A stretch of 59,716 nucleotides of DNA from Clostridia bacterium. Lineage in GTDB: Bacteria > Bacillota > Clostridia > Peptostreptococcales > Acidaminobacteraceae. Below the pieces are notes generated by a model. The model was not told the origin of the DNA. It searched no databases and saw nothing but the letters and a program-made list of their open reading frames with translations. Both the position numbers and the translations under genes were made by a program. Below are positions 42,965-57,585 of this stretch, piece by piece; the stretch's first letter is position 1; each line of letters begins with the position of its first letter. The stretch spans positions 1 through 59,716 of the forward strand of contig JACUUV010000011.1 of assembly GCA_014859095.1 (NCBI GenBank), read 5' to 3'.

Positions 42965-42999
42965 AAAGACCAGATCAATCAAATTTTGTGAGGTGTAAT

Positions 43000-44979
43000 A
43001 TGCAATTGATCAAGAGTGAGAATGCTTTTAAGGTTTTACTAAATGGCACGGCTTTGATTGAGCACTCGGAAAAAGAACCATTTGTTTATATAGGTGTAGG
43101 AAAAGAATCAATAAGTCAACATTATGGAGATTTTAAAATTAAGGATAAAATCATTAAAAAAATACCTTTGAGTTCAGTGACATTTCAAGATGATCAACTT
43201 AAGTTCAGCAATTGTGGTTATGAACTTGCATTGATCTTAAAGATTGAAGATAAGTGTCTTGAAATAAGTGACATAAAATATGATGAGAAGAGCATCAATA
43301 GGGTTTACTTCAATTTTACATCTGAAAAAAAAGAACGTTTTTTTGGGTGCGGTGAGCAGTTTAGTTATTTGAATCTTAAAGACAGAAATTTTCCTATATG
43401 GACATCAGAACCTGGCGTCGGAAGGGACCGTAATAGCTTGATCAGTTTTAAGGCTGATCAAATGGGGGTAGGTGGTGGCGACTATTATACGACCAACTAT
43501 CCACAACCCACTTTTATTTCTGATAGAAAATATCTTTTTCACATGGAGACTTCTTTTTACTGTGATTTTGACTTTTCTGAAGATCAATTGACTCAAGTTT
43601 GTGCGTGGGGTAATCCGAATCGTATTATCATCGAAGCAAGGAACAGTTATCTTGATATTATGAATTTGGTTACCGAGACATTCGGTACACAGCCGATGTT
43701 ACCTGATTGGCTATTGAATGGCATCACACTTGGAATGCAAGGTGGTACAAATGTCGTTTATGATAAAGTGAAAACTGCAAAAGAGTATGGTATTCATGTC
43801 AATGCTGTTTGGTGCCAAGATTGGGTTGGGAAAAAAGTCACTTCTTTTGGAAAACGTCTCTTTTGGAAGTGGGAGAAAAGTGATGAACAGTATCCATTGT
43901 TTGAAAAAATGATTGAAGACCTTCAAAATGACGGCATAAGATTCATGGCTTATATCAATCCTTATCTGCTAGAGGGGACGGACTTGTTCAATCATGCAAT
44001 GGAACACAAATATTTTGTGAAAAAAACGGATGGAAGTGCTTATATCGCGGATTTTGGTGAATTTTACTGTGGGACGATGGATTTCACAAACCCAGAGGCT
44101 ATGCAATGGTATAAGCAAATAATTCAAAAAAATATGATTGACATTGGAATCAGTGGATGGATGGCAGACTTCGGAGAGTATATTCCCGTGGATGCGGTAT
44201 TCTTTAATGGAAAAACGGGCGCGGAGATGCACAATGAATATCCTGCACTCTGGGCAAAGTGTAACTACGATGCTGTTTCTGAACGCAATAAACTTGGTGA
44301 AGTAGTCTACTTTATGCGAGCGGGTGGAGTAGGAAATGCCAAGTATTGCACATTGATGTGGGCTGGTGATCAGAGTGTTGACTTTACTCTCCATGATGGA
44401 CTTGCTTCAACCATACCAGCGGCATTATCTCTAGGTCTTATGGGAAATGGGTTGACTCATTTTGATATTGGGGGTTATACCTCACTTTTTGGTAATGTCA
44501 GATCAGAAGAGTTAATGCTCCGATATTTGGAATATTCAGTTTTCACACCTTATATGCGGACGCATGAAGGAAACCGTCCTGATGAGAATTTCCAGTATGA
44601 TCAAAGTGACAATTGCCTAAAACAATTTGCTCATTTTTCAAATTTACGAAGCAAACTACTACCATATATCAAACATGTGATCAATGAAAATGTTACGACT
44701 GGAATCGGCGCTATGCGCCCCTTGTTTATGCATTACGAAGATGAAGCGTGTCTGGATATTGCTTATGAGTATCTCTTTGGAAGAGATTTGCTTGTAGCGC
44801 CTGTTTATGAGGCCGGTATTTCGGAATGGGATGTCTTCTTGCCTGAAGATCAATGGATGCATCTTTTTACAAAAAAGAAGTTCAGCGGTGGCGTTTGTAA
44901 AGTGTCGGCTGAACTTGGAAATATCCCTGTGTTTTGTCGAGTTGAATCGGCGTTTATTGATTTATTTGAATCCATTTAG
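43000..44979 (+). CDS. yihQ: Sulfoquinovosidase (GH31, YihQ type)
   Basis: 659 residues from ATG 43000 (GTGAGGTG upstream). It releases sulfoquinovose from alpha-sulfoquinovosides such as sulfoquinovosyl glycerol. Every key residue of E. coli YihQ is present at a constant offset of 15: Q247, Q273, R286, W289 and Y493 (YihQ Q262, Q288, R301, W304, Y508: sulfonate and sugar contacts), nucleophile D390 (D405, in WMADFGEY) and acid/base D457 (D472, in WAGDQSVDF). The length is normal and there is no signal peptide, so it acts in the cytosol. It is the entry enzyme of the operon. Confidence 0.95.
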   Translation: MQLIKSENAFKVLLNGTALIEHSEKEPFVYIGVGKESISQHYGDFKIKDKIIKKIPLSSVTFQDDQLKFSNCGYELALILKIEDKCLEISDIKYDEKSINRVYFNFTSEKKERFFGCGEQFSYLNLKDRNFPIWTSEPGVGRDRNSLISFKADQMGVGGGDYYTTNYPQPTFISDRKYLFHMETSFYCDFDFSEDQLTQVCAWGNPNRIIIEARNSYLDIMNLVTETFGTQPMLPDWLLNGITLGMQGGTNVVYDKVKTAKEYGIHVNAVWCQDWVGKKVTSFGKRLFWKWEKSDEQYPLFEKMIEDLQNDGIRFMAYINPYLLEGTDLFNHAMEHKYFVKKTDGSAYIADFGEFYCGTMDFTNPEAMQWYKQIIQKNMIDIGISGWMADFGEYIPVDAVFFNGKTGAEMHNEYPALWAKCNYDAVSERNKLGEVVYFMRAGGVGNAKYCTLMWAGDQSVDFTLHDGLASTIPAALSLGLMGNGLTHFDIGGYTSLFGNVRSEELMLRYLEYSVFTPYMRTHEGNRPDENFQYDQSDNCLKQFAHFSNLRSKLLPYIKHVINENVTTGIGAMRPLFMHYEDEACLDIAYEYLFGRDLLVAPVYEAGISEWDVFLPEDQWMHLFTKKKFSGGVCKVSAELGNIPVFCRVESAFIDLFESI

Positions 44980-45029
44980 ATTATTAAAGTAACCAAACAA
45001 ATTGTTTGGATTGAAAAGGAGAAAAAAAA

Positions 45030-45710
45030 ATGAAGTATTTTTTGGATAGTGCAAAATTGGATGAAATTGAGTACGCATATGAGTTTTTCGGAATAGATGG
45101 TGTTACTACAAACCCAAAGCATATAAAGCTTAGTGGCAAACCATTTAAAACAGTGATTACTGAGATGGCACAGTGGGTTAAGTCAAAGGGCATAGAAGGT
45201 GCTGATAAATTCCCGATTTCGATTGAGATCAATCCACATTTAGACCGTTGGGAAGACATGGTCTCAGAAGGTAAGATCTACTCGGAAATCTGCAAAAATT
45301 TCGTAATCAAAATACCTTGTACGGAACAAGGGATTATCGCTGCTAGAAAACTTGAAATGGAAGGGATCAGAACGAATGTGACACTAGTTTTTTCACCTTC
45401 ACAAGCAATTATGCCTGGTAAAGCAAACTGTATGTTCGTGTCCCCATTTGTAGGTTGGAAAGAAAGCAGTGGAGAAGACTGCACACAATATATTCAAGAT
45501 ATAGTAGACATTTATGCGAATTATGACTTTAAGACTGAAATCATAGTCGCGGCACTTAGAAATGGTAAACAAATAAAGGATGCTGCCATTGCTGGAGCCG
45601 ATATAGTCACTTGTGGATTACAAGTCTATAAAGAAGCACTTGAACATCCATTTACTACCCATGGTCTAGGTGTGTTCAGAGACGCTTGGGATGATACTGC
45701 AAAGGAGTAA
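45030..45710 (+). CDS. Short transaldolase, probable sulfofructose transaldolase
   Basis: 226 residues, the size of FSA/TalC-type transaldolases. Schiff-base lysine K94 (FVIKIPCT); GVTTNP near the start. Two residues argue for transaldolase over free aldolase: Glu66 in SIEIN (TalB Glu96; FSA has Gln) and Phe140 in SPFVGW (TalB Phe178; FSA has Tyr). The phosphate-binding arginine of TalB/FSA (Arg181/Arg134) is Trp143 here. That fits a sulfonate instead of a phosphate at C6. Proposed reaction: 6-deoxy-6-sulfofructose plus glyceraldehyde 3-phosphate gives sulfolactaldehyde plus fructose 6-phosphate (SftT/SqvA role). AAAAGGAG precedes the ATG; the next gene follows after three bases. Confidence 0.82.
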   Translation: MKYFLDSAKLDEIEYAYEFFGIDGVTTNPKHIKLSGKPFKTVITEMAQWVKSKGIEGADKFPISIEINPHLDRWEDMVSEGKIYSEICKNFVIKIPCTEQGIIAARKLEMEGIRTNVTLVFSPSQAIMPGKANCMFVSPFVGWKESSGEDCTQYIQDIVDIYANYDFKTEIIVAALRNGKQIKDAAIAGADIVTCGLQVYKEALEHPFTTHGLGVFRDAWDDTAKE

Positions 45711-45713
45711 AAA

Positions 45714-47054
45714 ATGAGAAAGTTCAATGCTTTATACTTGCCAATCGGTGTTCCAACCTTTCATAAGGAGAGCATTGATCAACAATTTCATTTATCAAAA
45801 AAATTATTGGCCAGCATCTCTGATACAATCGAAATTCCTGAAGAGCCACTGCTCACTGTTCCAGATCTTTTAAGTTTTATTCAAGGTAAAGACTGTGATC
45901 TCATTATTCTACAAAACAACGCATTCGCAAATTCAGAATACACTTCAGAAATTTTAAGACACTTAAATGCTGATATTCTTCTTTGGACCTTACAAGAACC
46001 CGTAATTGATGGAGGCAGACTTAGACTGAATTCATTGACAGGAGCATATTCAGCCGCAAATTTGATGCATCATTTTGGAAAAGTTAATTTTGAATATATT
46101 TGGGGATCTCCCATGGACGAAAGTGTCATAAAAAAAATCAAAGCTGTAGTCGCTGCTGCAGCTTTAAAGAAAGAGCTGCAATCACTGACGCTTGCTTCAA
46201 TAGGTCATACACCCCAAGGGTTTGGATTTGGAAGAGGCATCGATGCGGAAATCGGAAAGTATTTTGGAATGAAGCACATTGCGGTGGAAGTCAGAGAACT
46301 TATGGACCGTGCAAAAAAACTGGATTTGGAATCATGTTCAAATGAAATCAAAGAAGTAGAGCAAAAACTTTTGGGACTTTCCCAAGTCTCGGAAAACAAT
46401 AGAAATGACTTTATTCGTCTTTATAAAGCATATTTTGACTTTATCAAGGAGAACAATATTGCTGCAATTTCTTCTAGATGTTGGCCTGATTTTTTTGTGG
46501 ATTTCGGGACGCCCGTTTGTGCGGTCTTAGGAATGCTAAATGACAACCAAATAGCAGCATCTTGTGAAGCAGATGCTTATGGTGCTCTATCGATGCTGAT
46601 CGGTATGAAATTGTCACATGAGAGTGTCTTCTTTGGAGATCCAGTCTCACTTGACAAAGAAGAGAACACAGTCACTTATTGGCATTGTGGAACGGCTGCG
46701 TGCAGTTTGGCACATCCAAATCAAGGGACACAAATAGGAGTGCATCCAAATCGAAAAATAGGACCAACCATGGAATACGGATGCAAACCCTCAGAAGAAG
46801 CGACTGTATTTAGAGTAGGTAGAAAGCCTGACGGCTCTATAAGATTTTTCATTGCAACTGGAAAAATTCTTGATAAGGAGCAACAATTCTTAGGAACATC
46901 ACTTGTGTTTGAAAGCCAGACGTCTTCTATTGATTTGGTGAGCAAAAGTGTTAGCGATGGTTGGGAGCCACATTTCATTGTAGCTTATAAAGACATCAAA
47001 GACGAATTGATGACACTTGGAAAATATTTGAACGCAGAAATTTGCCATTATTAA
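45714..47054 (+). CDS. L-fucose/L-arabinose isomerase family protein, probable sulfoquinovose isomerase
   Basis: 446 residues. The C-terminal half carries the family metal and substrate region (ISSRCWPDFFVDFGTPVCAV; IAASCEADAYGALSM). The N-terminal part is the Rossmann-like domain with LPIGVPTFH. In the known transaldolase and transketolase sulfoglycolysis routes the sulfoquinovose-to-sulfofructose step is done by a member of this superfamily (SftI/SqvD/SqwD), so I infer that role from position between the sulfoquinovosidase and transaldolases. An isomerase of another aldose cannot be excluded by sequence alone. Confidence 0.8.
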   Translation: MRKFNALYLPIGVPTFHKESIDQQFHLSKKLLASISDTIEIPEEPLLTVPDLLSFIQGKDCDLIILQNNAFANSEYTSEILRHLNADILLWTLQEPVIDGGRLRLNSLTGAYSAANLMHHFGKVNFEYIWGSPMDESVIKKIKAVVAAAALKKELQSLTLASIGHTPQGFGFGRGIDAEIGKYFGMKHIAVEVRELMDRAKKLDLESCSNEIKEVEQKLLGLSQVSENNRNDFIRLYKAYFDFIKENNIAAISSRCWPDFFVDFGTPVCAVLGMLNDNQIAASCEADAYGALSMLIGMKLSHESVFFGDPVSLDKEENTVTYWHCGTAACSLAHPNQGTQIGVHPNRKIGPTMEYGCKPSEEATVFRVGRKPDGSIRFFIATGKILDKEQQFLGTSLVFESQTSSIDLVSKSVSDGWEPHFIVAYKDIKDELMTLGKYLNAEICHY

Positions 47055-47096
47055 ACTAATTTTTTGTATGTAGATCAACAATAAAAGGAGATAAAA

Positions 47097-48146
47097 ATGA
47101 GCCTCTTGAAAATGACTAGCCAAACTACCCCAACTAAGTACTGGAATGATTCCTGCGAATTGAAGGGACTCGACTACGCATTGGGAAACAACTGCGTCGG
47201 TGCGACTACTAACCCTATCATCGTTAAAAGTGTCATTGAAAATAATCTCGCAATTTATGAAGAGACAATAATCGAAATTCTAAAGAAAAATCCAACGATG
47301 ACTGAGGATGAACTTACTTGGTATATGATAGAGAAACTTGCAAAGGATGGTGCAAAAAAACTTGAACCGATTTTCAATTCTAAAACAGGTGAGGGCAGAA
47401 TATCGATCCAAACCAACACCAAGTATTGTAAAAGTCCTGACTTATTGATTGAACAAGCTTTATATTTTTCTACTCTTGCTCCAAATATTCAAGTCAAAAT
47501 ACCTGTGACAGCTGCTGGAGTAAAAGCAATTGAAGAAGTCACTTACCAAGGTGTCTCGATAAATGCAACGGTATGCTTCACGGTTCCACAAGCTGTAGCG
47601 GTTGCAGAAGCTGTGGAAAGAGCTTTGGCAAAACGTGAATCAGAAGGAAAAGACAATTCTGAAATCAATCCGGTTTGTACCATTATGATTGGACGGACTG
47701 ATGACTATATCAAAAAAGTCGTGAATTCACAAATGGCATTAATTGATCCTGAAGCTATGGACTGGGCTGGAATTGCATGTGCAAAAAACTATTATAGACT
47801 GTTTAAAGAACGCAACTATAAAACAAAACTACTCACTGCGGCTTTCAGAAATCTACACCACTGGACTGCTTTGGTTGGTGGAGACCTCTTAGCCACAATT
47901 CCTACCCCATTTCAAAAGAGAATTGATGCCAGCAATATTACGATAGACAGTCGAATTGATGAACCTGTAAATGAATCGTGGCTAAATCAATTGAAAACTT
48001 TACCTGAGTTCGTAAAAGCTTATGAGCCAGATGGCATGAAGGTAGAGGAATTTGATCATTACGGTGCAGTCATCGATACTTTAACTCAGTTTTATCAAGG
48101 TTATGATGAACTTGTTATAATTATGAGAAAGTATATTTTGAGATAA
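47097..48146 (+). CDS. Second, larger transaldolase-family protein
   Basis: 349 residues. ATTNP (36-40), Schiff-base lysine K134 in IQVKIPVT and F161 in NATVCFTVPQA are recognisable. It differs from the short transaldolase at each diagnostic point: Gln105 in SIQTN (FSA-like, not Glu), Met197 in TIMIGR where TalB has Phe178, and Arg200 where TalB has the phosphate-binding Arg181. It therefore probably does another reaction, with a phosphorylated partner. AAAGGAGAT precedes the ATG. It may be an aldolase or transaldolase on a C4-C7 intermediate; I do not know its substrate. Confidence 0.75.
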   Translation: MSLLKMTSQTTPTKYWNDSCELKGLDYALGNNCVGATTNPIIVKSVIENNLAIYEETIIEILKKNPTMTEDELTWYMIEKLAKDGAKKLEPIFNSKTGEGRISIQTNTKYCKSPDLLIEQALYFSTLAPNIQVKIPVTAAGVKAIEEVTYQGVSINATVCFTVPQAVAVAEAVERALAKRESEGKDNSEINPVCTIMIGRTDDYIKKVVNSQMALIDPEAMDWAGIACAKNYYRLFKERNYKTKLLTAAFRNLHHWTALVGGDLLATIPTPFQKRIDASNITIDSRIDEPVNESWLNQLKTLPEFVKAYEPDGMKVEEFDHYGAVIDTLTQFYQGYDELVIIMRKYILR

Positions 48147-48151
48147 GTCAT

Positions 48152-49243
48152 ATGGATAGACTATCAGACTTCAGGATAAAAATTGATGCAATCCGATCCA
48201 TCTTAAAAACCAAAGGATTTGATGGGATTGAAATAAAATCACAAACCAATTTCAGCTATGTGACTAGAGGAAGAGGCTTTATTGGTCTCGCCTCAGTTAT
48301 GGCTTGTGCAAGCCTATTTATCACAAATAATCGAGTTGTACTTGTTGGAGAAAACATCGATGCTCAAAGAATTTTTGATGAACAATTGTTGTCAAACCCG
48401 GATATTGATTTAATGATTTTTCCTTGGGATGAACCCGATCATCGAAATGTGATAGTAGAGAGTTTCGCTAAAAACCTAAAAATTGCTACAGAGGTCGATT
48501 TGGAGCATGAATTATATGAGATCAGAACACGGCTATCTGAATACGACATGGATGCTTTTCGTGAGTTGGGCAAAGAAGCTGCGACCATAATTGAAAATAT
48601 CTGTAAACAATTGAAAAAAGGAATCCGCGAGTATGAACTGGCTGGAGAAATCTCTAAGCAATTATGGGAAAAAAATATTGAACCGATAACTCTTCTCGTT
48701 GCTTTTGATGGAAGGGGACAGAAGTATCGTCATCCAGTAATGGTAGAAAACCGTCTGGAAAATTATGCTCTCGTAGGAATATGCGGCAGACGTAATGGCT
48801 TGATTGTGTCTCTGACAAGAGATGTTCTTTTGAAACACGATGCTGAAATTATGGACCATCACTCAAAATGTATACGTGTCAACGCATCGTTTTGGAATAA
48901 ACTAAAGCCAGGAACTTCTGTTTCAGAGGTTTTCGCTGCAGGTGTGGCACAATATGGAATCGAAGGTTATCCACTAGAGTACAAGGAGCATCATCAGGGA
49001 GGTCTGACCGGGTTTATCCCTCGAGAACTAAGAGCATCATTTGAGAGCAAACATGTGATTCGTAGTGGAGAAGCATATGCATTCAACCCAACTCTCAAAA
49101 GTGCAAAAGTTGAAGATACAGTTCTTGTAACAAATAACGGACTTGAAATATTAACGTATACGGGAAATTATTCTTACGAAAACTGCACAATAATGGGGAA
49201 GAATATTAACGTGCCAACGGTTTTTGTTATTGAAGGCAATTAG
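48152..49243 (+). CDS. M24 (creatinase/aminopeptidase P fold) protein with degenerate metal site
   Basis: 363 residues. The N-terminal creatinase-like domain spans about 1-130 and the pita-bread domain about 135-363. Of the five metal ligands of M24 enzymes, the two aspartates are gone (GICGRRNG and VSLTRDV where DxG and SDxTR are expected) and the first glutamate is Asn (AFNPT). A His (KEHHQGGLTGFIPRE) and the last Glu (KVEDTVLVT) remain. It is therefore unlikely to be a dinuclear metallopeptidase. Creatinase itself is a metal-free hydrolase of this fold, so a non-peptidase lyase/hydrolase role is conceivable. It lies five bases after the transaldolase gene, deep in the operon. Confidence 0.78.
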   Translation: MDRLSDFRIKIDAIRSILKTKGFDGIEIKSQTNFSYVTRGRGFIGLASVMACASLFITNNRVVLVGENIDAQRIFDEQLLSNPDIDLMIFPWDEPDHRNVIVESFAKNLKIATEVDLEHELYEIRTRLSEYDMDAFRELGKEAATIIENICKQLKKGIREYELAGEISKQLWEKNIEPITLLVAFDGRGQKYRHPVMVENRLENYALVGICGRRNGLIVSLTRDVLLKHDAEIMDHHSKCIRVNASFWNKLKPGTSVSEVFAAGVAQYGIEGYPLEYKEHHQGGLTGFIPRELRASFESKHVIRSGEAYAFNPTLKSAKVEDTVLVTNNGLEILTYTGNYSYENCTIMGKNINVPTVFVIEGN

Positions 49244-49257
49244 AGAGGAGAGCGGGT

Positions 49258-50382
49258 ATGGGAAACACAAGTTTTAACTATTTTATGCCAACACAATTAG
49301 TGTTTGGTGATGATGCAACTCTTGGTCTTGATGGATTGATCAAAGGGAAAAGTTTGCTGATTATGAGTGATCCGTTTTTATATAATAATGGAACAGCTCA
49401 AGAAGTGGCGGAAGCGACCAAAATTGATTCTGTGGTTTTCTTTCATGAGATAGAACCAAATCCTTCGTGTCAAACAGTTGATAAAGCGGTAGCACTGGCT
49501 AGAGAGAACAAGGTGGATGTAGTAATTGGACTTGGTGGGGGCAGTACTATGGACGCTTCAAAAATGGTGTCCTGTCTTATAGACAATGAAGGAAGCATCT
49601 TTGATTACTACAGCACTGGAAACAAAACGCTTCTACCAAGAAAAGCACAACTGATTTGTATCCCGACCACTGCAGGAACTGGAAGTGAAGTAACAAATAT
49701 TGGAGTCTATACCAACAAGGAAACCCATACAAAAATGCCATTTGCATCAGAATATTTTTGGCCTGATATTGCGCTTATCGATCCGAAATTGACTTATACT
49801 TTGCCCCCGCACATTACTGCATCAACTGGAATGGATGCTTTCTGCCATGCGATTGAAGCCTATTGGAGTGTTAATTCCAATCCGATTTCAGATGCGCTAT
49901 CAATATCTGTAATTAAAAAAATTCTAGATAATATTGAGATGGCAGTAAACGAGCCTGGCAATGTTGAAGCTAGAAATAATATGTCATTTGCCAGTGTAAC
50001 AGCTGGAATATCATTCAGTCAAACAAAGACAACCGGAATTCATGCTGTAAGTTTTCCACTAACTGTTGATTTCGGAGCTAGTCACGGCATTGCATGCAGC
50101 ATTACACTACCAGCTTTTATTCGATTTGCATATGCCGGAAGGAAATCAAAGATGGATTACCTCTTCACTGTCCTTGGTTTTAGCTCAATAGAAGATTTTG
50201 CAGGAAGAGTCGAAGACATCATGACAAGAATTGATCTGCCAACAAGACTCAGCGCAATTAATGTGAAAGAGTCAGATTTAGAACATATCGTAGAGGTCTC
50301 TATGAAAGCGCCACTAATACACTTCACACCTGGAACAATGAACCAAGAAGTGCTTCACAAACTTTTAAAATCGATTCTTTAA
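49258..50382 (+). CDS. Iron-containing alcohol dehydrogenase, probable sulfolactaldehyde reductase
   Basis: 374 residues. GLGGGSTMDASK binds NAD(P). The iron ligands are all visible: Asp and His in TGMDAFCHAIEAYW, His in GIHAVSFPL and His in GASHGIACS. GAGAGGAGAGC precedes the ATG. In the transketolase route a group III alcohol dehydrogenase (SqwF) reduces sulfolactaldehyde to 2,3-dihydroxypropane-1-sulfonate, which would regenerate NAD+ for fermentation. That role is inferred from the operon. Confidence 0.85.
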   Translation: MGNTSFNYFMPTQLVFGDDATLGLDGLIKGKSLLIMSDPFLYNNGTAQEVAEATKIDSVVFFHEIEPNPSCQTVDKAVALARENKVDVVIGLGGGSTMDASKMVSCLIDNEGSIFDYYSTGNKTLLPRKAQLICIPTTAGTGSEVTNIGVYTNKETHTKMPFASEYFWPDIALIDPKLTYTLPPHITASTGMDAFCHAIEAYWSVNSNPISDALSISVIKKILDNIEMAVNEPGNVEARNNMSFASVTAGISFSQTKTTGIHAVSFPLTVDFGASHGIACSITLPAFIRFAYAGRKSKMDYLFTVLGFSSIEDFAGRVEDIMTRIDLPTRLSAINVKESDLEHIVEVSMKAPLIHFTPGTMNQEVLHKLLKSIL

Positions 50383-50394
50383 TAAGGTGATGCT

Positions 50395-51231
50395 ATGAAT
50401 AATTTGAAATTTTTAGAAGAAAAAGCGATGGAAATCAGGCAACTGACCATTGAAAGTATTGGAAAATTAGGTATAGGTCATGTTGGGGGGAGTTTATCCA
50501 TCTGTGATTTACTTGCTTTGCTCTATTTTGATGTGATGAAGATCGATCCACTCCTTCCAAACAATGAAGATAGAGATCGTTTCATTTTATCAAAAGGACA
50601 TGGAGGTCCAGCTGTTTATTCAGCTTTAGCCCTCAAAGGGTATTTTGATAAATCTCTACTGGACACACTCAATCGTCCAAATACGAAATTGCCAAGTCAC
50701 TGCGATAGGAATCTTACCATCGGCATTGACATGACCACTGGCTCTCTTGGACAAGGATTTTCATGTGCGGTGGGAGTTGCGATAGGAGCACGTATGATGA
50801 AAAAAGATTTTTGGACTTATGTCTGCATAGGTGACGGTGAATCACAAGAGGGACAAATCTGGGAAGCAGCGATGCTGGCAGGATCTCAGAAACTGGACAA
50901 ACTGATTGCGTTTACTGATTACAATAAACTTCAAATTGATGGAAATATTGAACAAATCAATGGTCTTTATCCACTCGACGAAAAGTGGGAGTCTTTTGGA
51001 TGGCATGTTCAAGTCGTCGATGGTCATAACATTAAAGCGTTAAAGTATGCCATTACACTTGCACAAAACATTTCTGGTCGTCCATCCATGATCATCATGG
51101 ATACGATCAAGGGAAAAGGCGCAAGATTTGCAGAAAATAAAATTTCTTCCCATAATATGCCTGTCACAGAGGAGATGTGGAAAGAAGCTGTAAAAGAGAT
51201 TGAAGAATTGAAGGTGAGATTATGCAATTAA
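50395..51231 (+). CDS. Transketolase, N-terminal (TPP-binding) subunit
   Basis: 278 residues. The thiamine diphosphate motif CIGDGESQEG...NKLQIDG, plus GHVGGSLS, LSKGHGG and TGSLGQG, are intact. It needs the C-terminal subunit encoded next (overlap of ten bases). Split transketolases occur for ordinary pentose phosphate work and for sulfoglycolysis (SqwGH), where they move two-carbon units from sulfofructose to glyceraldehyde 3-phosphate, leaving 4-deoxy-4-sulfoerythrose. The second role is inferred from context. Confidence 0.92.
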   Translation: MNNLKFLEEKAMEIRQLTIESIGKLGIGHVGGSLSICDLLALLYFDVMKIDPLLPNNEDRDRFILSKGHGGPAVYSALALKGYFDKSLLDTLNRPNTKLPSHCDRNLTIGIDMTTGSLGQGFSCAVGVAIGARMMKKDFWTYVCIGDGESQEGQIWEAAMLAGSQKLDKLIAFTDYNKLQIDGNIEQINGLYPLDEKWESFGWHVQVVDGHNIKALKYAITLAQNISGRPSMIIMDTIKGKGARFAENKISSHNMPVTEEMWKEAVKEIEELKVRLCN

Positions 51232-52178
51232 CTGGAAGATGGCTGAGAGAAATATTTTCTGAACTTTTAATTGAACATGCCAAATCTGATGATCGAATTT
51301 GTTATATCGAGGCTGATCTGATGTTGGCAAGTGGTACAGGAGGATTTAAGGAGCAATTTCCTGATAGAACAATCAATGTAGGAGTTGCTGAGGCCAACAT
51401 GATAAGTGTGGCGGCAGGTGTTTCTACACTTGGAATGATTCCTTTTACACATTCATTTACACCTTTTGCTACAAGAAGATGCTGTGACCAAATAACACTT
51501 TCAGTCAGTTACGCCAAAAATAACGTCAAGATGATTGGAAGTGATCCAGGGATTACAGCAATGCTTAATGGCGGAACTCATATGAGTATGGAAGATGTAG
51601 CAATAATGAGAAATATACCTGGAATGTGTATTGTTGAACCGATTGATGGGGTGCAACTCGTCAGTTTGTTTCCGCAAATTCTCAACCATGATGGACCGGT
51701 TTATATACGTCTGCTAAGGAGAGAAGCCAAATCGGTTTATAGTGAAGGAGAATCTTTCACACTGGGTAAATCTAGTGTAATTCATTCAGGAAAAGATGTC
51801 ACAATTATAGCCAGTGGAATAATGGTGTCAGAAGCGATACAAGCCAGGGAACTATTGATGCAAGAAGGCATTGATGCAGGCATTATTGATTGTCACACCA
51901 TAAAACCTTTTGATAATGAAACACTAATCAAAGAGGCTTCAATATCGGGAGCTGTTGTTACTGCGGAAAATCATTCCATTATCAATGGCCTAGGGAGTGC
52001 GGTAGCTGAGTGCTTAAGTGAAAATCTTCCTTTGCCTATGAGACGTGTAGGGGTAAAAGATCATTTTGGTGAAGTAGGAATGCAGGATTTCTTAGCCGAA
52101 AAATTTGGACTGACAGCTAAAGACATTGTAAATGCCTGCAAACAAGTTGTGGGATTAAAGGGGGAAAAACAATGCTGA
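51222..52178 (+). CDS. Transketolase, C-terminal subunit
   Basis: 318 residues: pyrimidine-binding domain with the catalytic Glu in NVGVAEANMISVAAG, the loop NGGTHMSMEDVAIMRNIPG, and the C-terminal domain (TVIASGIMVSEAI-like, VVTAENHSIINGLGSAVAE). It overlaps both neighbours (ten bases upstream, seven downstream), so the two halves and the isomerase are translationally coupled. The pair would make xylulose 5-phosphate from sulfofructose and from sulfoerythrulose. Confidence 0.92.
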   Translation: MQLTGRWLREIFSELLIEHAKSDDRICYIEADLMLASGTGGFKEQFPDRTINVGVAEANMISVAAGVSTLGMIPFTHSFTPFATRRCCDQITLSVSYAKNNVKMIGSDPGITAMLNGGTHMSMEDVAIMRNIPGMCIVEPIDGVQLVSLFPQILNHDGPVYIRLLRREAKSVYSEGESFTLGKSSVIHSGKDVTIIASGIMVSEAIQARELLMQEGIDAGIIDCHTIKPFDNETLIKEASISGAVVTAENHSIINGLGSAVAECLSENLPLPMRRVGVKDHFGEVGMQDFLAEKFGLTAKDIVNACKQVVGLKGEKQC

Positions 52179-52663
52179 AAATTTTATTGGGATCTGATAA
52201 ATCAGGATTTCAACTTAAGGAGTTTGTAAAAAGGGACCTCATCGAAAAAGGTTATGAAATTGAAGATTGCGGCACGCTTGATTTTGATGCTCCAATGCCA
52301 TTTTATAATGTTGCACCAATTGCAGCAAAGAAAATACAAAACAAAGAATTTGATCGGGCCATATTATTTTGTGGAACAGGGATGGGCATGGCTATAATAG
52401 CCAATAAATTTAACGGTGTGTATGCCGCGGTAGTTGAAAGTACTTACGCTGCAGAAAAGTGTCGAGCGATCAACGATGCTAATATATTGACTATGGGTGG
52501 TTGGATAGTAGCTGAAACTTTAGGAGCTGAAATTGCGAATAAATTTTTAGAAACAGAGTTTACCCAAGGACTTGAAGAATGGCGTCAGGCTTTCCTAATT
52601 AAAGCAAGAGAAGAAGTGAAAGCGATTGAGCAAAATGCCGATGAACTCACTTCAATTCTTTAG
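52172..52663 (+). CDS. RpiB/LacAB-type isomerase, probable 4-deoxy-4-sulfoerythrose isomerase
   Basis: 163 residues. The RpiB fold is clear (LGSDKSGFQLKEF; LFCGTGMGMAIIANK with catalytic Cys67; INDANILTMGG). Two residues conserved in ribose-5-phosphate isomerase B are changed: His10 (phosphate contact) is Lys10 and His99 (ring opening) is Ile100. Loss of the ring-opening histidine suits a substrate that cannot cyclise in the same way, as a 4-sulfo-tetrose would. This matches the SqwI step of the transketolase route. Coupling to the transketolase genes supports it. Confidence 0.82.
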   Translation: MLKILLGSDKSGFQLKEFVKRDLIEKGYEIEDCGTLDFDAPMPFYNVAPIAAKKIQNKEFDRAILFCGTGMGMAIIANKFNGVYAAVVESTYAAEKCRAINDANILTMGGWIVAETLGAEIANKFLETEFTQGLEEWRQAFLIKAREEVKAIEQNADELTSIL

Positions 52664-52675
52664 ACAGGATCTATT

Positions 52676-54034
52676 ATGGAAAACAAAAGAAAAGTATCTA
52701 AATTAGGACTACTCACGATGTCTATAGGTGGTATGATCGGCTGGGGCGCATTTATGCAACCGGGGATTAAATTTTTACCGCAAGCTGGTGTATTGAATAC
52801 TATGATTGGTATGTTCTTAGGTCTCATTATGGTATCTACTATAGCTTCGTGTTATGGAATCATACTCAACAAATCACCTGACTCAAAAGGTGGAGAGTAT
52901 TCGTATAGTAAACTGGCATTTAATAAAATGCATAGTTTCGTGGTAGGCTGGTTTCTAATGATTGTTTTTATTGGTATTGCAGCACTTAATGCCACATCTT
53001 TTGCACTAATCTTTAAAAATGTTGTATTTCCAACTGCCGACTTTATCACTTTGTATGTCATCGCGGGCTCATCAGTGACACTTGGTGAAATCGTTATCAG
53101 TATCTTGGTGATTGTTGTTTTTAGCTTGTTGATGATCAGAGGTGTGGAATCAGTTGTGAAGGTTCAAAATATTGTTACTGTCGCACTGATCATCATTGTA
53201 TTTTCCATCTTTTTCTTATCGCTTGGCAAGATTGACTTTGCCAATTCGCCGCTAATGGATTATTCTATGACCAGCACAATCAGTCTAAGTGGCATTATTG
53301 CAATTCTCGTCATCACCCCTTGGGCTTACTATGGTGTATCCAATATACCAAAAGTCGCAAGCGATGCGAAGTTGCCCTACAAACAGGTTATCATCATAAC
53401 GATAGTTTCTTTGATCTGTGGGTTTATTATCTATCAAATGCTTCTTGTATTAACCGCATCGATGTTCTCACAAAGTGATCTTGTGGGATACAATGGATGG
53501 GCAACAGGAGATGCCATTAGAAAGTTGTATGGCAATACAGGTCTGTTTTTCATCACTTCGGGACTGGCGTTTGCAATATTTTCAGGTGTCAACAGCTTCT
53601 ATATTGGTGCTGTACGTGTTATGAGCACAATGAGTGAAGATGGGTTGTTGTCGAAGAAATTTTCAAGAAAGCATCCAAAGTATGGAACCCCCCACCATGC
53701 GATTTTGTTTATTTTGGTCATAATCATTTCAGCCCCATTTTTCGGCAAACAAGTTATCAAGTGGATAGTGGACATGTCAGCACTTGGAGGAGCATTAGTT
53801 TTCTTTTATACATCGTTTACTGCATATAGAATCAGTGAAGGGATAGAGAAAACAGTAGGATTGGTTGCGACGATTTTTAGCGTTGTTTTCTTACTACTAC
53901 TTGTTATTCCAAGTTCGCCAGGATTCTTATCGACACCTTCAATCATAGCCCTTTGTATTTGGTCAGGACTTGGTGCGATCTTATATTGGATTGACACACG
54001 TCAAACTTTAGCTGAAGCAACCGTTGAAGCATGA
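52676..54034 (+). CDS. APC superfamily permease
   Basis: 452 residues with about 12 membrane helices. The first helix has SIGGMIGWGAFMQPGIKFLP, the unwound substrate-binding segment of APC transporters. Relatives carry amino acids or polyamines. It starts 12 bases after the isomerase gene, so it belongs to the operon. Candidates are import of sulfoquinovose derivatives, export of the C3-sulfonate product, or uptake of an amino acid linked to the pathway. The sequence does not decide. Confidence 0.85.
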   Translation: MENKRKVSKLGLLTMSIGGMIGWGAFMQPGIKFLPQAGVLNTMIGMFLGLIMVSTIASCYGIILNKSPDSKGGEYSYSKLAFNKMHSFVVGWFLMIVFIGIAALNATSFALIFKNVVFPTADFITLYVIAGSSVTLGEIVISILVIVVFSLLMIRGVESVVKVQNIVTVALIIIVFSIFFLSLGKIDFANSPLMDYSMTSTISLSGIIAILVITPWAYYGVSNIPKVASDAKLPYKQVIIITIVSLICGFIIYQMLLVLTASMFSQSDLVGYNGWATGDAIRKLYGNTGLFFITSGLAFAIFSGVNSFYIGAVRVMSTMSEDGLLSKKFSRKHPKYGTPHHAILFILVIIISAPFFGKQVIKWIVDMSALGGALVFFYTSFTAYRISEGIEKTVGLVATIFSVVFLLLLVIPSSPGFLSTPSIIALCIWSGLGAILYWIDTRQTLAEATVEA

Positions 54035-54179
54035 TAGGAGGAAAATGGATCATAGTCCTATTGAAATTTGGAAAAGCTGTTGAATAATAGTTTTTCCTTT
54101 TTTCAGTATTTACATAATTTAACCCATATACGTTTGATGGATGAATTCTAGCTTGAGAAGTAAAAAAGGAGGAGCCTCA

Positions 54180-55664
54180 ATGAATCAGAAGGAAAGAACA
54201 ATACAATCAAAATTGTCATACGGATTTGCTGATATATACGGTGGAGGATCATTTTTAATTATCAGCATTTTATACATGGTCTTTTTAACAGATGTTGTCA
54301 AGATGACACCAGTTCTTGCGGGAACGATCCCATTAATTGGTAAAATATGGGATGCCATAACTGATCCAATCATGGGAAATATAGCAGATCGTACTCAATC
54401 CAAATTTGGAGCGAAGCGGTTTTATCTTCTGATTGGCAGTGTGCTTTCGGGTTTATCTTTTGCTATGCTATGGTCTACTCTCGAGGGGGGAATAATGCTT
54501 CAATATGCTTATTATCTTTTGATGTATATCCTCTTTTCCACAGCGTTTACCATAGTGATGGTTCCTTATAATGCGTTGCTCCCCGATATGATAGATGATT
54601 ATTCATTAAGGGGCAGTTATACCATGTATCGAATGATATTCAGTGCTATATCAGCTATCATCGCAGGATTGATTCCCAGTCTCATCATCAACAGTTTTGG
54701 CAATCATGTCAAGCAAGGCTACTTGGCAATGGGTGCACTTTTTGGGATTGTTTTTTTTCTATCTATAATGGTGACTTTTTTTGGTTCATGGGAGATGAGT
54801 AAACCAGTGGTAAAAAAATCCTTTTATGATGCATTTTCACATTCTTTTAGTGTCTTTAAAAACAGATCGTTTCGATTATACCTTGGTATTTTTCTGTTTG
54901 GTCAAGGCAGTGCGGATTTTGTGACTGGTGGGGTCATTTATTTTCTGGCTGTTGTGATCCGCAGATCGGATTATTTTATGGCTGTGATGGCATCTGTTTT
55001 ATTGTCACAGCTCCTTGCGATGTTTTTATATCAACAGGTTATACGCAATTGGTCAAAAAAGACTCCAATTTTATTAGGCTTTCCACTTAGGATTCTCGCT
55101 ACCATCGGACTTTTATTTTTCGCACATGAAAATGCACCACTCCTACCAATAGTGGTGTTGTCATTTATTGCGGGAATCGGAACAGCCGCTTCCAGTGTAA
55201 CCTCATATGCCATATTAGCGGATCTGAGTGATGTAGATCAACTTATTACGACAGAAAAAAGAGTAGGCATCTATTCTGGGATGGCGACGTTTTCAAGAAA
55301 AATCGCAAATGGCATTGCTATCTGGTTCACGGGTGCGATTCTGAGTTTGTTTCAATATAATTCTGAAGCCTTGGTACAAAAGAGTATAACAGTTATTGGT
55401 GTAAAAATAATGTTTATCGCTATACCTATTGTAATGATGATTGGAACTTTATATTTCACAATTAAATTTCCGATAGACAAAGGCCGTTTTGAAGTTATTC
55501 AAAGGGAAGTTCGAAGAAGGCAAGCCTTTGATCAAGATTTGAAATCAACTACAAATTTCCAAAAGGAGTTTACCCAGCCTACTGACTCAGATCGACTGAT
55601 ATGTGAGCAGATTACTGGATACTCATATGAACACTTATGGAGGCTCGAGAATGAAAGCATATGA
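54180..55664 (+). CDS. GPH family sugar:cation symporter (YihO/YihP/MelB type)
   Basis: 494 residues from ATG 54180, with AAAAAGGAGGA upstream; the frame opens 39 bases earlier without a ribosome site. About 12 membrane helices. The GPH cation motif is in KIWDAITDPIMGNIADRTQS, followed by KFGAKRFYLL. YihO and YihP of the E. coli sulfoquinovose cluster are the same family, so this is the best candidate for sulfoquinovose or sulfoquinovosyl glycerol uptake. The last 14 bases overlap the second GH31 gene. Confidence 0.87.
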   Translation: MNQKERTIQSKLSYGFADIYGGGSFLIISILYMVFLTDVVKMTPVLAGTIPLIGKIWDAITDPIMGNIADRTQSKFGAKRFYLLIGSVLSGLSFAMLWSTLEGGIMLQYAYYLLMYILFSTAFTIVMVPYNALLPDMIDDYSLRGSYTMYRMIFSAISAIIAGLIPSLIINSFGNHVKQGYLAMGALFGIVFFLSIMVTFFGSWEMSKPVVKKSFYDAFSHSFSVFKNRSFRLYLGIFLFGQGSADFVTGGVIYFLAVVIRRSDYFMAVMASVLLSQLLAMFLYQQVIRNWSKKTPILLGFPLRILATIGLLFFAHENAPLLPIVVLSFIAGIGTAASSVTSYAILADLSDVDQLITTEKRVGIYSGMATFSRKIANGIAIWFTGAILSLFQYNSEALVQKSITVIGVKIMFIAIPIVMMIGTLYFTIKFPIDKGRFEVIQREVRRRQAFDQDLKSTTNFQKEFTQPTDSDRLICEQITGYSYEHLWRLENESI

Positions 55665-57585
55665 AGAACTGGTTAAAGGCCTTAAAATCGAATTGGGGTA
55701 TGGTGATGCTAAATACACTATGAAACGAGGCACTTTTAAGACCAAAGATCAGATCAAGAACGTTAGACAATTTTTATTTGAGGGGGTGGTGTCCAACAAG
55801 TACAAGTTTACTGATGGCAGTGACTTCTTTTATATTGAACACAGACACCATGCTATCAGTGAATTTAAAATTGTCTGTGATCTTCCGTACAACCGGATGT
55901 GGATTTACTTACCATCTAAGGAGGATGAAGCATTTTTTGGATGTGGTGAACAGTTCACTCATTTCAATCTCAAAGGGAAATGTGTGAAGAATTGGGTCTC
56001 AGAGCATCATTCCCTGAATAAATTAATTAGAAAAGCGATTAGAGAGAATGTTTTTGGCGTCAATCCCTCACATCGAACTGATTATAAAAATCATCAGACT
56101 TACTATGCACAGCCCACATTTGTATCAAGTGATCTGTACTTTCTTCACTGCGATACCCACGCTTATTCGGAATTCGATTTTAGAAGACCAGAAACGACAG
56201 TTCTTTATTTTAGAGAAATTCCGAAATCATTTTATGTTGGCTATGCCAATTCTTACTCAGAATTATCAGAGCTGCTTTCAAGTTGTGTCGGGAAACAACC
56301 TACGCTTCCAGAATGGACAGGAAAAGGCGCGATTATTGCATCGCAAGGAGGTCTTGAGACTGCAGTCAACACAGTAAAAAAAGCGCAAAATTCTGGTGCA
56401 AAAGTAGTTGGCATCTGGTGTCAGGATTGGTCCGGCCAAATCGTCACCGGCTTTGGAACACAAGTATATTGGAACTGGAGCCTTGATGAAACTTTATATG
56501 AAGGACTTAAAGATCAAATAGAATCATGGAAATCAGAAGGAATCAAATTTTTAGGTTATATCAATACTTTTCTTAAACAAGATGTACCTATGTATCAAGA
56601 AGCTGAATCTAGGGGCTATCTAGTTAAAAATTTTAAAGGTTCACCTTATCATATTTCAGCGACAACTTTTAAGGCCGGTATAGTAGATTTGACCAATCCA
56701 GAAGCTTTTAAGTGGTATAAAAATAAGATTAAAGAAAATATGATTGATTTGGGCTTTTCGGGATGGATGGCAGATTTTGGTGAATATTTACCTACAGATG
56801 CAGTGGTGTACTCTTCTGAAGCTCCTGAAAAACTGCATAATGCTTGGCCGGAGTTGTGGTCAAAACTCAATCGAGAAATCATTGATGAGTGTGGGGTTCA
56901 AAATGAAGTGTTTTTCTTCACAAGGGCTGGATACACTGAAACAATAAAATACAGTAATTCGATGTGGTCAGGAGATCAACATGTTGATTTTAGTGATGAA
57001 TATGGTATGCCATCAGTTATTTGTTCAACACTTAGTCTTGCAATGAGTGGAATTGGCATCAACCATAGTGATGTAGGGGGTTATACGACTATTTTTCATA
57101 TGAAGAGAAGTGAAGAGTTGTTGATGAGATGGGGAGAAATCAATATTTTTACGCCTTTATTTCGTTATCATGAAGGAAATCGTCCTAACTCCAATGCTCA
57201 GTTTGATCATTCTGAGAAATCAATCATGCATTTTTCAAAAATGTCGCAATATTTTCATCAACTATCACCTTATCTCGAATACAATAAAAAGCAATATGAA
57301 AAGTTTGGGATTCCTGTGAATCGACCGGTTTTTTATCATTATGAAAATAAAGATCAATTTGAGACGCCTACCAGTTTTCTATATGGTAGAGATGTTTTGG
57401 TTGCTCCAGTTTTAAGACAAAATCAAGCTAGTGTAGAAGTCACTCTCCCAGAAGATGAGTGGATTCATCTCTTCACAAAAAAAGTATATTCGAGTGGAAC
57501 ACATACGGTCGAATCGCCTTTGGGGGTGCCGTGTGCCTTTTATAGAAGGGCAAGTGAATTTGCCGAGTTATTTGAACAACTCTAA
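55651..57585 (+). CDS. GH31 sulfoquinovosidase-like enzyme lacking the sulfonate-binding arginine
   Basis: 644 residues from ATG 55651 (TGGAGG upstream). It is a paralogue of the sulfoquinovosidase at 43000. Compared with E. coli YihQ, numbering differs by a constant 30: Q232, Q258, W274, Y478, nucleophile D375 and acid/base D442 are all kept. The sulfonate-binding Arg301 is Gln271, and the preceding Lys300 is Thr270 (FGTQVYWNW instead of FGKRVMWNW). The catalytic machinery is intact, so it should be active. A changed or neutral group at C6 of the glycoside seems likely. It ends the operon and overlaps the symporter gene. Confidence 0.9.
   Translation: MKAYEELVKGLKIELGYGDAKYTMKRGTFKTKDQIKNVRQFLFEGVVSNKYKFTDGSDFFYIEHRHHAISEFKIVCDLPYNRMWIYLPSKEDEAFFGCGEQFTHFNLKGKCVKNWVSEHHSLNKLIRKAIRENVFGVNPSHRTDYKNHQTYYAQPTFVSSDLYFLHCDTHAYSEFDFRRPETTVLYFREIPKSFYVGYANSYSELSELLSSCVGKQPTLPEWTGKGAIIASQGGLETAVNTVKKAQNSGAKVVGIWCQDWSGQIVTGFGTQVYWNWSLDETLYEGLKDQIESWKSEGIKFLGYINTFLKQDVPMYQEAESRGYLVKNFKGSPYHISATTFKAGIVDLTNPEAFKWYKNKIKENMIDLGFSGWMADFGEYLPTDAVVYSSEAPEKLHNAWPELWSKLNREIIDECGVQNEVFFFTRAGYTETIKYSNSMWSGDQHVDFSDEYGMPSVICSTLSLAMSGIGINHSDVGGYTTIFHMKRSEELLMRWGEINIFTPLFRYHEGNRPNSNAQFDHSEKSIMHFSKMSQYFHQLSPYLEYNKKQYEKFGIPVNRPVFYHYENKDQFETPTSFLYGRDVLVAPVLRQNQASVEVTLPEDEWIHLFTKKVYSSGTHTVESPLGVPCAFYRRASEFAELFEQL

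Follow-up and report, generated by a model that had tools for sequence, protein, structure and literature searches.

A large sister clade of GH31 sulfoquinovosidase homologues with glutamine in place of Arg301

What does a close relative of the sulfoquinovosidase YihQ cleave when the arginine of its sulfonate site has been exchanged? The question is raised by a stretch of 59,716 nucleotides from a Clostridia bacterium of the family Acidaminobacteraceae (contig JACUUV010000011.1, here called the window), in which a gene at 55651-57585 of the forward strand encodes P0001, a YihQ-family α-glycosidase that carries Gln271 where YihQ has Arg301 and is termed Q-type below. The frame of 644 amino acids is intact from its ATG at 55651 to the stop at 57585, and GGAGG is found 5′ of the ATG. 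With E. coli yihQ (record CP061233) serving as the ruler for residue numbering, alignment gives an offset of 30 at the key positions: Q262, Q288, W304, D405, D472 and Y508 are kept as Q232, Q258, W274, D375, D442 and Y478, whereas R301 is changed to Q271 (codon 56461-56463, forward strand) and K300 to T270. An earlier note on this DNA had reported this offset, the six of seven kept residues and both exchanges, and the alignment agrees with it. The residues that recognize sulfoquinovose are, we assume, those named in the motifs QQRWY and KERWY. Speciale in 2016 and Abayakoon in 2018 reportedly defined these motif residues, with the sulfonate contacted by R301, W304 and a water held by Y508. The Q-type reads QQ-Q-WY, lacking the arginine and retaining the other four. 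We consider it probable that the Q-type is a retaining α-glycosidase of a GH31 sulfoquinovosidase subfamily hitherto left unseparated, which would cleave α-sulfoquinovosides inside the cell and pass sulfoquinovose to the pathway encoded in the same gene run.

GH31 sulfoquinovosidases are closer relatives of P0001 than other GH31 enzymes in the PDB, by fold as well as by sequence. Its top PDB sequence matches are sulfoquinovosidases (8r56, E 2e-165; YihQ 5aed, E 4.3e-164), and it passes the NCBIfam YihQ model NF007746 with 714 bits against a cut-off of 553. An AlphaFold2 (AF2) model with a predicted local distance difference test score (pLDDT) of 94.7 retrieved only sulfoquinovosidases at Foldseek ranks 1-23, the next match having E 4.8e-46, and gave VIA Z values of 53.8-55.9 to sulfoquinovosidases vs. 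41.5 for the next family. Identity to known GH31 sulfoquinovosidases is 36-41% in structure alignments. The Q-type shares with YihQ, SftG, SmoI and BmSQase the fold, the Asp pair (nucleophile Asp375, 56773-56775; acid/base Asp442, within 56974-56982, which also holds the clade-invariant His444, YihQ 474; both forward strand), Gln262, Gln288, Trp304, Tyr508 and the sulfoglycolysis cluster context. It differs from them in Arg301 to Gln, Glu369 to Thr, Gly368 to Thr and Tyr337 to Phe, in His474, and in a rewritten N-loop that carries His153 and Lys158. In P0001 this loop spans residues 119-153 (56005-56109, forward strand), has a helix predicted at 122-135 and includes His119 and Lys128, both invariant in the clade; the pair that replaces Gly368-Glu369 is Thr338-Thr339 (56662-56667, forward strand). 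The genome of the window holds a second member of the family, P0002, at 42988-44979 of the forward strand and in the same gene run, in which the Lys-Arg is kept (GKRLFWKW; R-type below), plus one remote GH31.

To see how far the exchange extends, 110 GH31 rows were gathered from genome searches and one scan of named genomes, duplicates and fragments below 450 residues being dropped. Residues were counted over 84 Q-type and 22 R-type rows, which leave out two remote GH31s, the intermediate L008 and L012, and the likewise intermediate L139-L142, added later. Position 301 is Gln in 84/84 Q-clade rows and Arg in 22/22 R-type rows, hence the change at Arg301 is more than chance. The neighboring Lys300 is not a defining residue, since R-type rows themselves show Ala (3/22) or Leu (1/22) there; the 84 Q-clade rows split at this position into Tyr (62), Lys (19), Thr (2) and Ala (1). 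His119, Lys128 and His444 (YihQ 153, 158 and 474) are each fixed in 84/84 rows, Thr338 (YihQ 368) is present in 83/84, Thr339 (YihQ 369) in 81/84 and Phe at YihQ 337 in 83/84. D405, D472, W304, Q288, W402 and H537 are kept throughout (84/84), as are Q262 and Y508 in all rows but one each, the exceptions being a Glu at 262 and an unread letter at 508. The N-loop is 35 residues long in 65 of 72 readable Q rows vs. 31 in 17 of 18 readable R rows.

A first tree, built from 80 of the 110 rows (32 of the 62 Tyr-Gln rows, drawn at random, among them) and an outgroup, shows a single change of the Q/R state, and a second tree of 64 rows with six extra sequences and no outgroup separates the Q-clade rows from the rest with support 100. 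P0001 groups in the clade that is sister to the R-types, which include E. coli yihQ; of the assayed enzymes, BmSQase, SftG and AtSQase are absent from these trees. Rooting with a distant GH31 was rejected, its branch reaching about 8 changes per column, so that neither state is put forward as ancestral. Judged by sequence, the Q-type is therefore a deep sister clade of GH31 sulfoquinovosidases, real and large. Adjoining the R clade there is also an intermediate group (L008, L012, L139-L142) with R-type N-loops and either Arg or Gln at 301; two of its members, L008 and L012, occur together in G150 beside a permease pair of binding-protein transport. Two further loci, L084 and L093, each hold a remote GH31 (E 7.5e-33 and 9.7e-34 to P0001) on the minus strand at about 19-21 kb of the locus and about 7-9 kb from the Q-type gene; these two lack the sulfoquinovose motif, without Q262, W304 or Y508 in the alignment.

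The genes around Q-type genes bear on which sugar is released. Eighty named loci were picked by their similarity to Q-type rows, so they are no measure of frequency, and were counted from a six-frame recount, a pathway gene being SftI, SftT, reductase, SftX or SqwG (reductase and GPH as family-level matches). No R-type gene was found in the stretch examined for 76 of the 77 named Q-bearing loci, and 67 of these 76 carry a pathway gene; the nine others are mostly short contigs, except L083 (20.0 kb) and L123 (22.0 kb). Among the 37 Q-only loci of at least 20 kb, 36 have a pathway gene (SftI 35, reductase 31, GPH 30, SftT 29, SftX/DUF4867 26), and the clade tied to sulfoquinovose loci for which the earlier note had proposed a search does exist. 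SftT is 56-70% identical to BmSF-TAL in Q loci (48 rows) and 60-67% in R loci (5 rows), and its GWKE motif is present in 51 of 52 named Q loci with SftT, L099 yielding only fragments without it; the two ordinary transaldolases compared have GRMDD and GRLDD at this place. Against the SftI model NF048012, R loci score 404-420 (three from the family f31), 372 and 531 (one locus each), and Q loci 410-417 in four cases and 178 in the fifth, L049. On trees of the pathway proteins the Q/R label changes three times for SftT, five for SftI and three for the reductase, on few R rows (5, 8 and 6, respectively). The GH31 type is thus swapped while the pathway stays, and therefore the product should be the same; the sugar released by the Q-type is most likely still sulfoquinovose. 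The earlier proposal that loss of the arginine signals a new sugar, neutral or with another C6 group, runs against the finding that Q-only loci mostly use the same sulfofructose enzymes as R loci, and such a product is unlikely because it would have to feed a sulfonate pathway; a changed aglycone or another form of sulfolipid, on the other hand, may apply. In seven loci (L070, L091, L096, L098, L101, L104, L107) a PfkB-family sugar kinase gene lies directly 5′ of the Q-type gene.

The window itself presents this context in one gene run (42988-57585) on a single strand, with short gaps or overlaps. The R-type gene is followed by an SftT-type transaldolase with the GWKE motif (45030-45710; 67% identical to BmSF-TAL, all NCBIfam matches below cut-off), an SftI-like sulfoquinovose isomerase (45714-47054; NF048012 366 bits, cut-off 700), a second transaldolase-family gene (47097-48146; PF00923), an M24-peptidase-like protein (48152-49243) and an iron alcohol dehydrogenase that by its position would be an SqwF-like sulfoacetaldehyde reductase (49258-50382). 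Next come a split transketolase pair, putatively SqwG/SqwH-like (50395-52178), neither this pair nor the dehydrogenase reaching an NCBIfam cut-off, a putative SqwI-like isomerase of RpiB/LacAB type (52172-52663), an amino-acid-type permease, and a GPH-like symporter (54141-55664; MFS_2; TIGR00792 205 bits against a cut-off of 231) that overlaps the start of the Q-type gene. For the pathway genes, most NCBIfam matches stay below the curated cut-offs. A genome of the same genus has the same order, with a Q-type 84% identical. The set resembles the bifurcated sulfo-transketolase/transaldolase (sulfo-TK/TAL) pathway as outlined for Faecalicatena in the available text of PMC11659671. The cluster of the M24-peptidase-like protein is also represented in L029, L042 and L121, and that of the second transaldolase-family protein in L029, L032, L042 and L100. 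Eight other Q-type loci encode a protein of 813-891 amino acids near the GPH or GH31 gene (L062:7449-9911; also L064, L075, L102, L106, L109 and L114, and split in two in L116), which matched nothing in Pfam and nothing convincingly among PDB sequences. Its model (pLDDT 69) matches GH38 α-mannosidases in Foldseek (best E 5.6e-15) and GH57 more weakly, making an undescribed glycosidase of sulfoquinovose operons possible.

The Q-type is rare across the phylum sample. At E 1e-90 a Q-clade member was found only in the genomes G000 and G263 among 391 of the class and only in G000 among 398 of the phylum, position 301 of L144 not being readable in this screen. In f31 (200 genera sampled, same threshold) 14 genomes gave a match, with the Q-type in eight, the R-type in eight and both in two, so that the Q-type is alone in six of its eight genomes. 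Three isolates, Pseudobutyrivibrio ruminis DSM 9787, Butyrivibrio sp. FCS014 and Butyrivibrio sp. MB2005, have one YihQ-family gene each (E 1e-30) in the assemblies as searched, and it is Q-type (L063:9968-11980 in P. ruminis). Of the 80 named loci, 24 have a title that mentions goat, sheep, deer or cattle. Viral contigs yielded no relative, and a plasmid collection gave 35 records, all below 60% identity, of which the four inspected (H7, H10, H14, H16) are R-type.

How could a sulfonate be held without Arg301? Since the residues of the -1 subsite are kept, the sugar is likely recognized as before. The substrate would probably be sulfoquinovosyl glycerol, imported by the adjacent GPH-like symporter and hydrolyzed by the Q-type within the cell, the freed sulfoquinovose passing to the isomerase and then to the transaldolase and transketolase of the same run. 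Trp274, Gln271, the Thr338-Thr339 pair and the water at Tyr478 might hold the sulfonate, perhaps with assistance from His444 and the N-loop residues Lys128 and His119. Position 369 follows position 301 in 35 of 36 rows, with Glu or Asp accompanying Arg and Thr or Ala accompanying Gln, the exception being L007 (Arg with Ala). The intermediate group has Arg or Gln at 301 with 369 following, and we read this as an ion pair having been lost: Arg301 would pair with Glu369 in the R-type, and in the Q-type both may have been exchanged for neutral Gln and Thr, leaving the net charge of the pocket little changed. Within the rows compared, only the Q clade has His153, Lys158 and His474 (YihQ numbering), which may bind the sulfonate or the aglycone; that Lys128, His119 or His444 is a basic replacement for Arg301 is a live possibility. 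Taken together, the best account of the Q-type is a putative sulfoquinovosidase whose sulfonate pocket has been rebuilt, possibly for another sulfoquinovoside.

A special form of this account, which we entertain tentatively, gives the Q-type another sulfoquinovose conjugate as its substrate, for instance one whose aglycone is charged or acylated and would be recognized by Lys128 and His119 at the +1 subsite. The longer loop with its invariant His153 and Lys158 agrees with it, as does the accessible text of a GH31 study according to which the N-loop borders the pocket of the active site, providing a +1 contact in glucosidase II (PMC4742823). So does the sharing of one region by R and Q genes in the window, G023, G588, L060 and G1010, since the two types can coexist if they cleave different conjugates; in the Mycoplasmatota genome of L048, too, R- and Q-type genes flank SftI-SqwGHI genes as in the window. 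Transport is split likewise: a GPH-type gene adjoins 42/88 Q-type vs. 1/19 R-type genes, and ABC permeases occur in the loci of 5/88 Q-type vs. 10/19 R-type genes, where two intermediate genes and one or more duplicate loci are among the 88, both types share the window, L032 and L060 in these counts, and flank lengths differ. However, where the Q-type is alone, as in the six f31 genomes and the three isolates, it must serve a general need, and a different aglycone gives no account of the invariable change at position 301, which belongs to the -1 subsite.

Less probable, and in our judgment unlikely, is that the Q-type is a neutral α-glycosidase, acting for example on glucosyl or galactosyl glycerol from plant lipids, as a companion in sulfoquinovose operons. 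The sulfonate-site arginine is gone, some sulfoglycolytic bacteria (Caproiciproducens) lack both known sulfoquinovosidases according to the available text of PMC13219744, and the PfkB-family kinase gene preceding the Q-type in seven loci would fit, although it could equally be a sulfofructose kinase. Against this, the operons carry dedicated sulfofructose enzymes, nearly all of the named Q-bearing loci are without an R-type in the stretch examined, and four of the five residues of sulfoquinovose recognition are kept. A decaying or regulatory duplicate without activity, to which the normal R-type gene in the same run might point, is highly improbable given a ratio of nonsynonymous to synonymous substitution rates (dN/dS) of about 0.11 to the one 84% identical orthologue compared, catalytic Asp residues invariant in all 84 rows, and several genomes in which the Q-type is the sole family member.

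Several points weigh against a sulfoquinovosidase with a rebuilt pocket. Arg301 is what we take to be the main sulfonate contact. The covariation of 301 and 369 comprises only two or three independent pairs, too few for a test, and a third tree, which has 36 rows and samples the intermediate group more fully, needs three Q/R changes; the trees are quick ones, with several long-branched rows in the GH31, SftT, SftI and reductase sets. No SftI score, whether from an R or a Q locus, reaches the cut-off of 700, and the isomerases of some Q loci (L049, L062, L074) are clearly divergent. The coexistence of R and Q genes in several loci suggests that they are not redundant. Furthermore, 'Q-only' refers to the stretch examined, and L048 was so counted although its genome has an R-type further along; GH188, which was not searched for, could supply the sulfoquinovosidase step in Q-only genomes.

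The Q-type subfamily has not previously been set apart from other GH31 sulfoquinovosidases, and no paper listed by the literature searches was described there as treating a sulfoquinovosidase with Arg301 replaced; nor did the papers searched contain an assay of a Q-type. Chu in 2023 reportedly described sulfo-TK in Acholeplasma and may have handled a Q-type cluster. In the available text of a recent survey of cow rumen, 64% and 47.5% of the rumen yihQ variants of two libraries fall on a long branch that includes Mariniplasma BK011_07555, from a genome with a second yihQ copy (Krasenbrink et al., 2026; PMC13219744). The long branch, the many rumen amplicons and the two copies in one genome are all features of likeness, and judged by hosts and branch length rather than by alignment this branch is probably the Q clade; in the main text of that paper the branch is treated as YihQ, and the terms 'residue', 'Arg' and 'active site' do not occur. 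A comparable case is found in the Tyr variants of GH188 SqgA, likewise a group of sulfoquinovosidases with linked gene clusters and a changed residue in the sulfonate site, but of another family with an NAD-dependent mechanism, and with the contact made by the backbone and the site intact in models, as far as the available text goes (Backlund and Higgins, 2024; PMC11465081).

As a bolder conjecture, perhaps rather than probably true, GH31 would have two solutions for the sulfonate, an Arg301-Glu369 pocket and a Gln-Thr pocket covered by N-loop Lys and His, the second being common among the gut bacteria of ruminants and reserved for a conjugate or a route of import of its own. The distinction matters for how such genes are counted. 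Because the NCBIfam YihQ model accepts P0001 above its cut-off, annotation would not tell the Q-type apart from YihQ, and in the 2026 rumen amplicon survey it is probably included as ordinary YihQ; conversely, screens by a motif built on the signature residues of Speciale et al., such as that described in the available text of Hanson et al. (2021; PMC8397734), could miss it. Whether the Q-type frees sulfoquinovose alters the number of gut bacteria credited with that step, and if it does, it would show how a sulfonate can be recognized without the canonical arginine.

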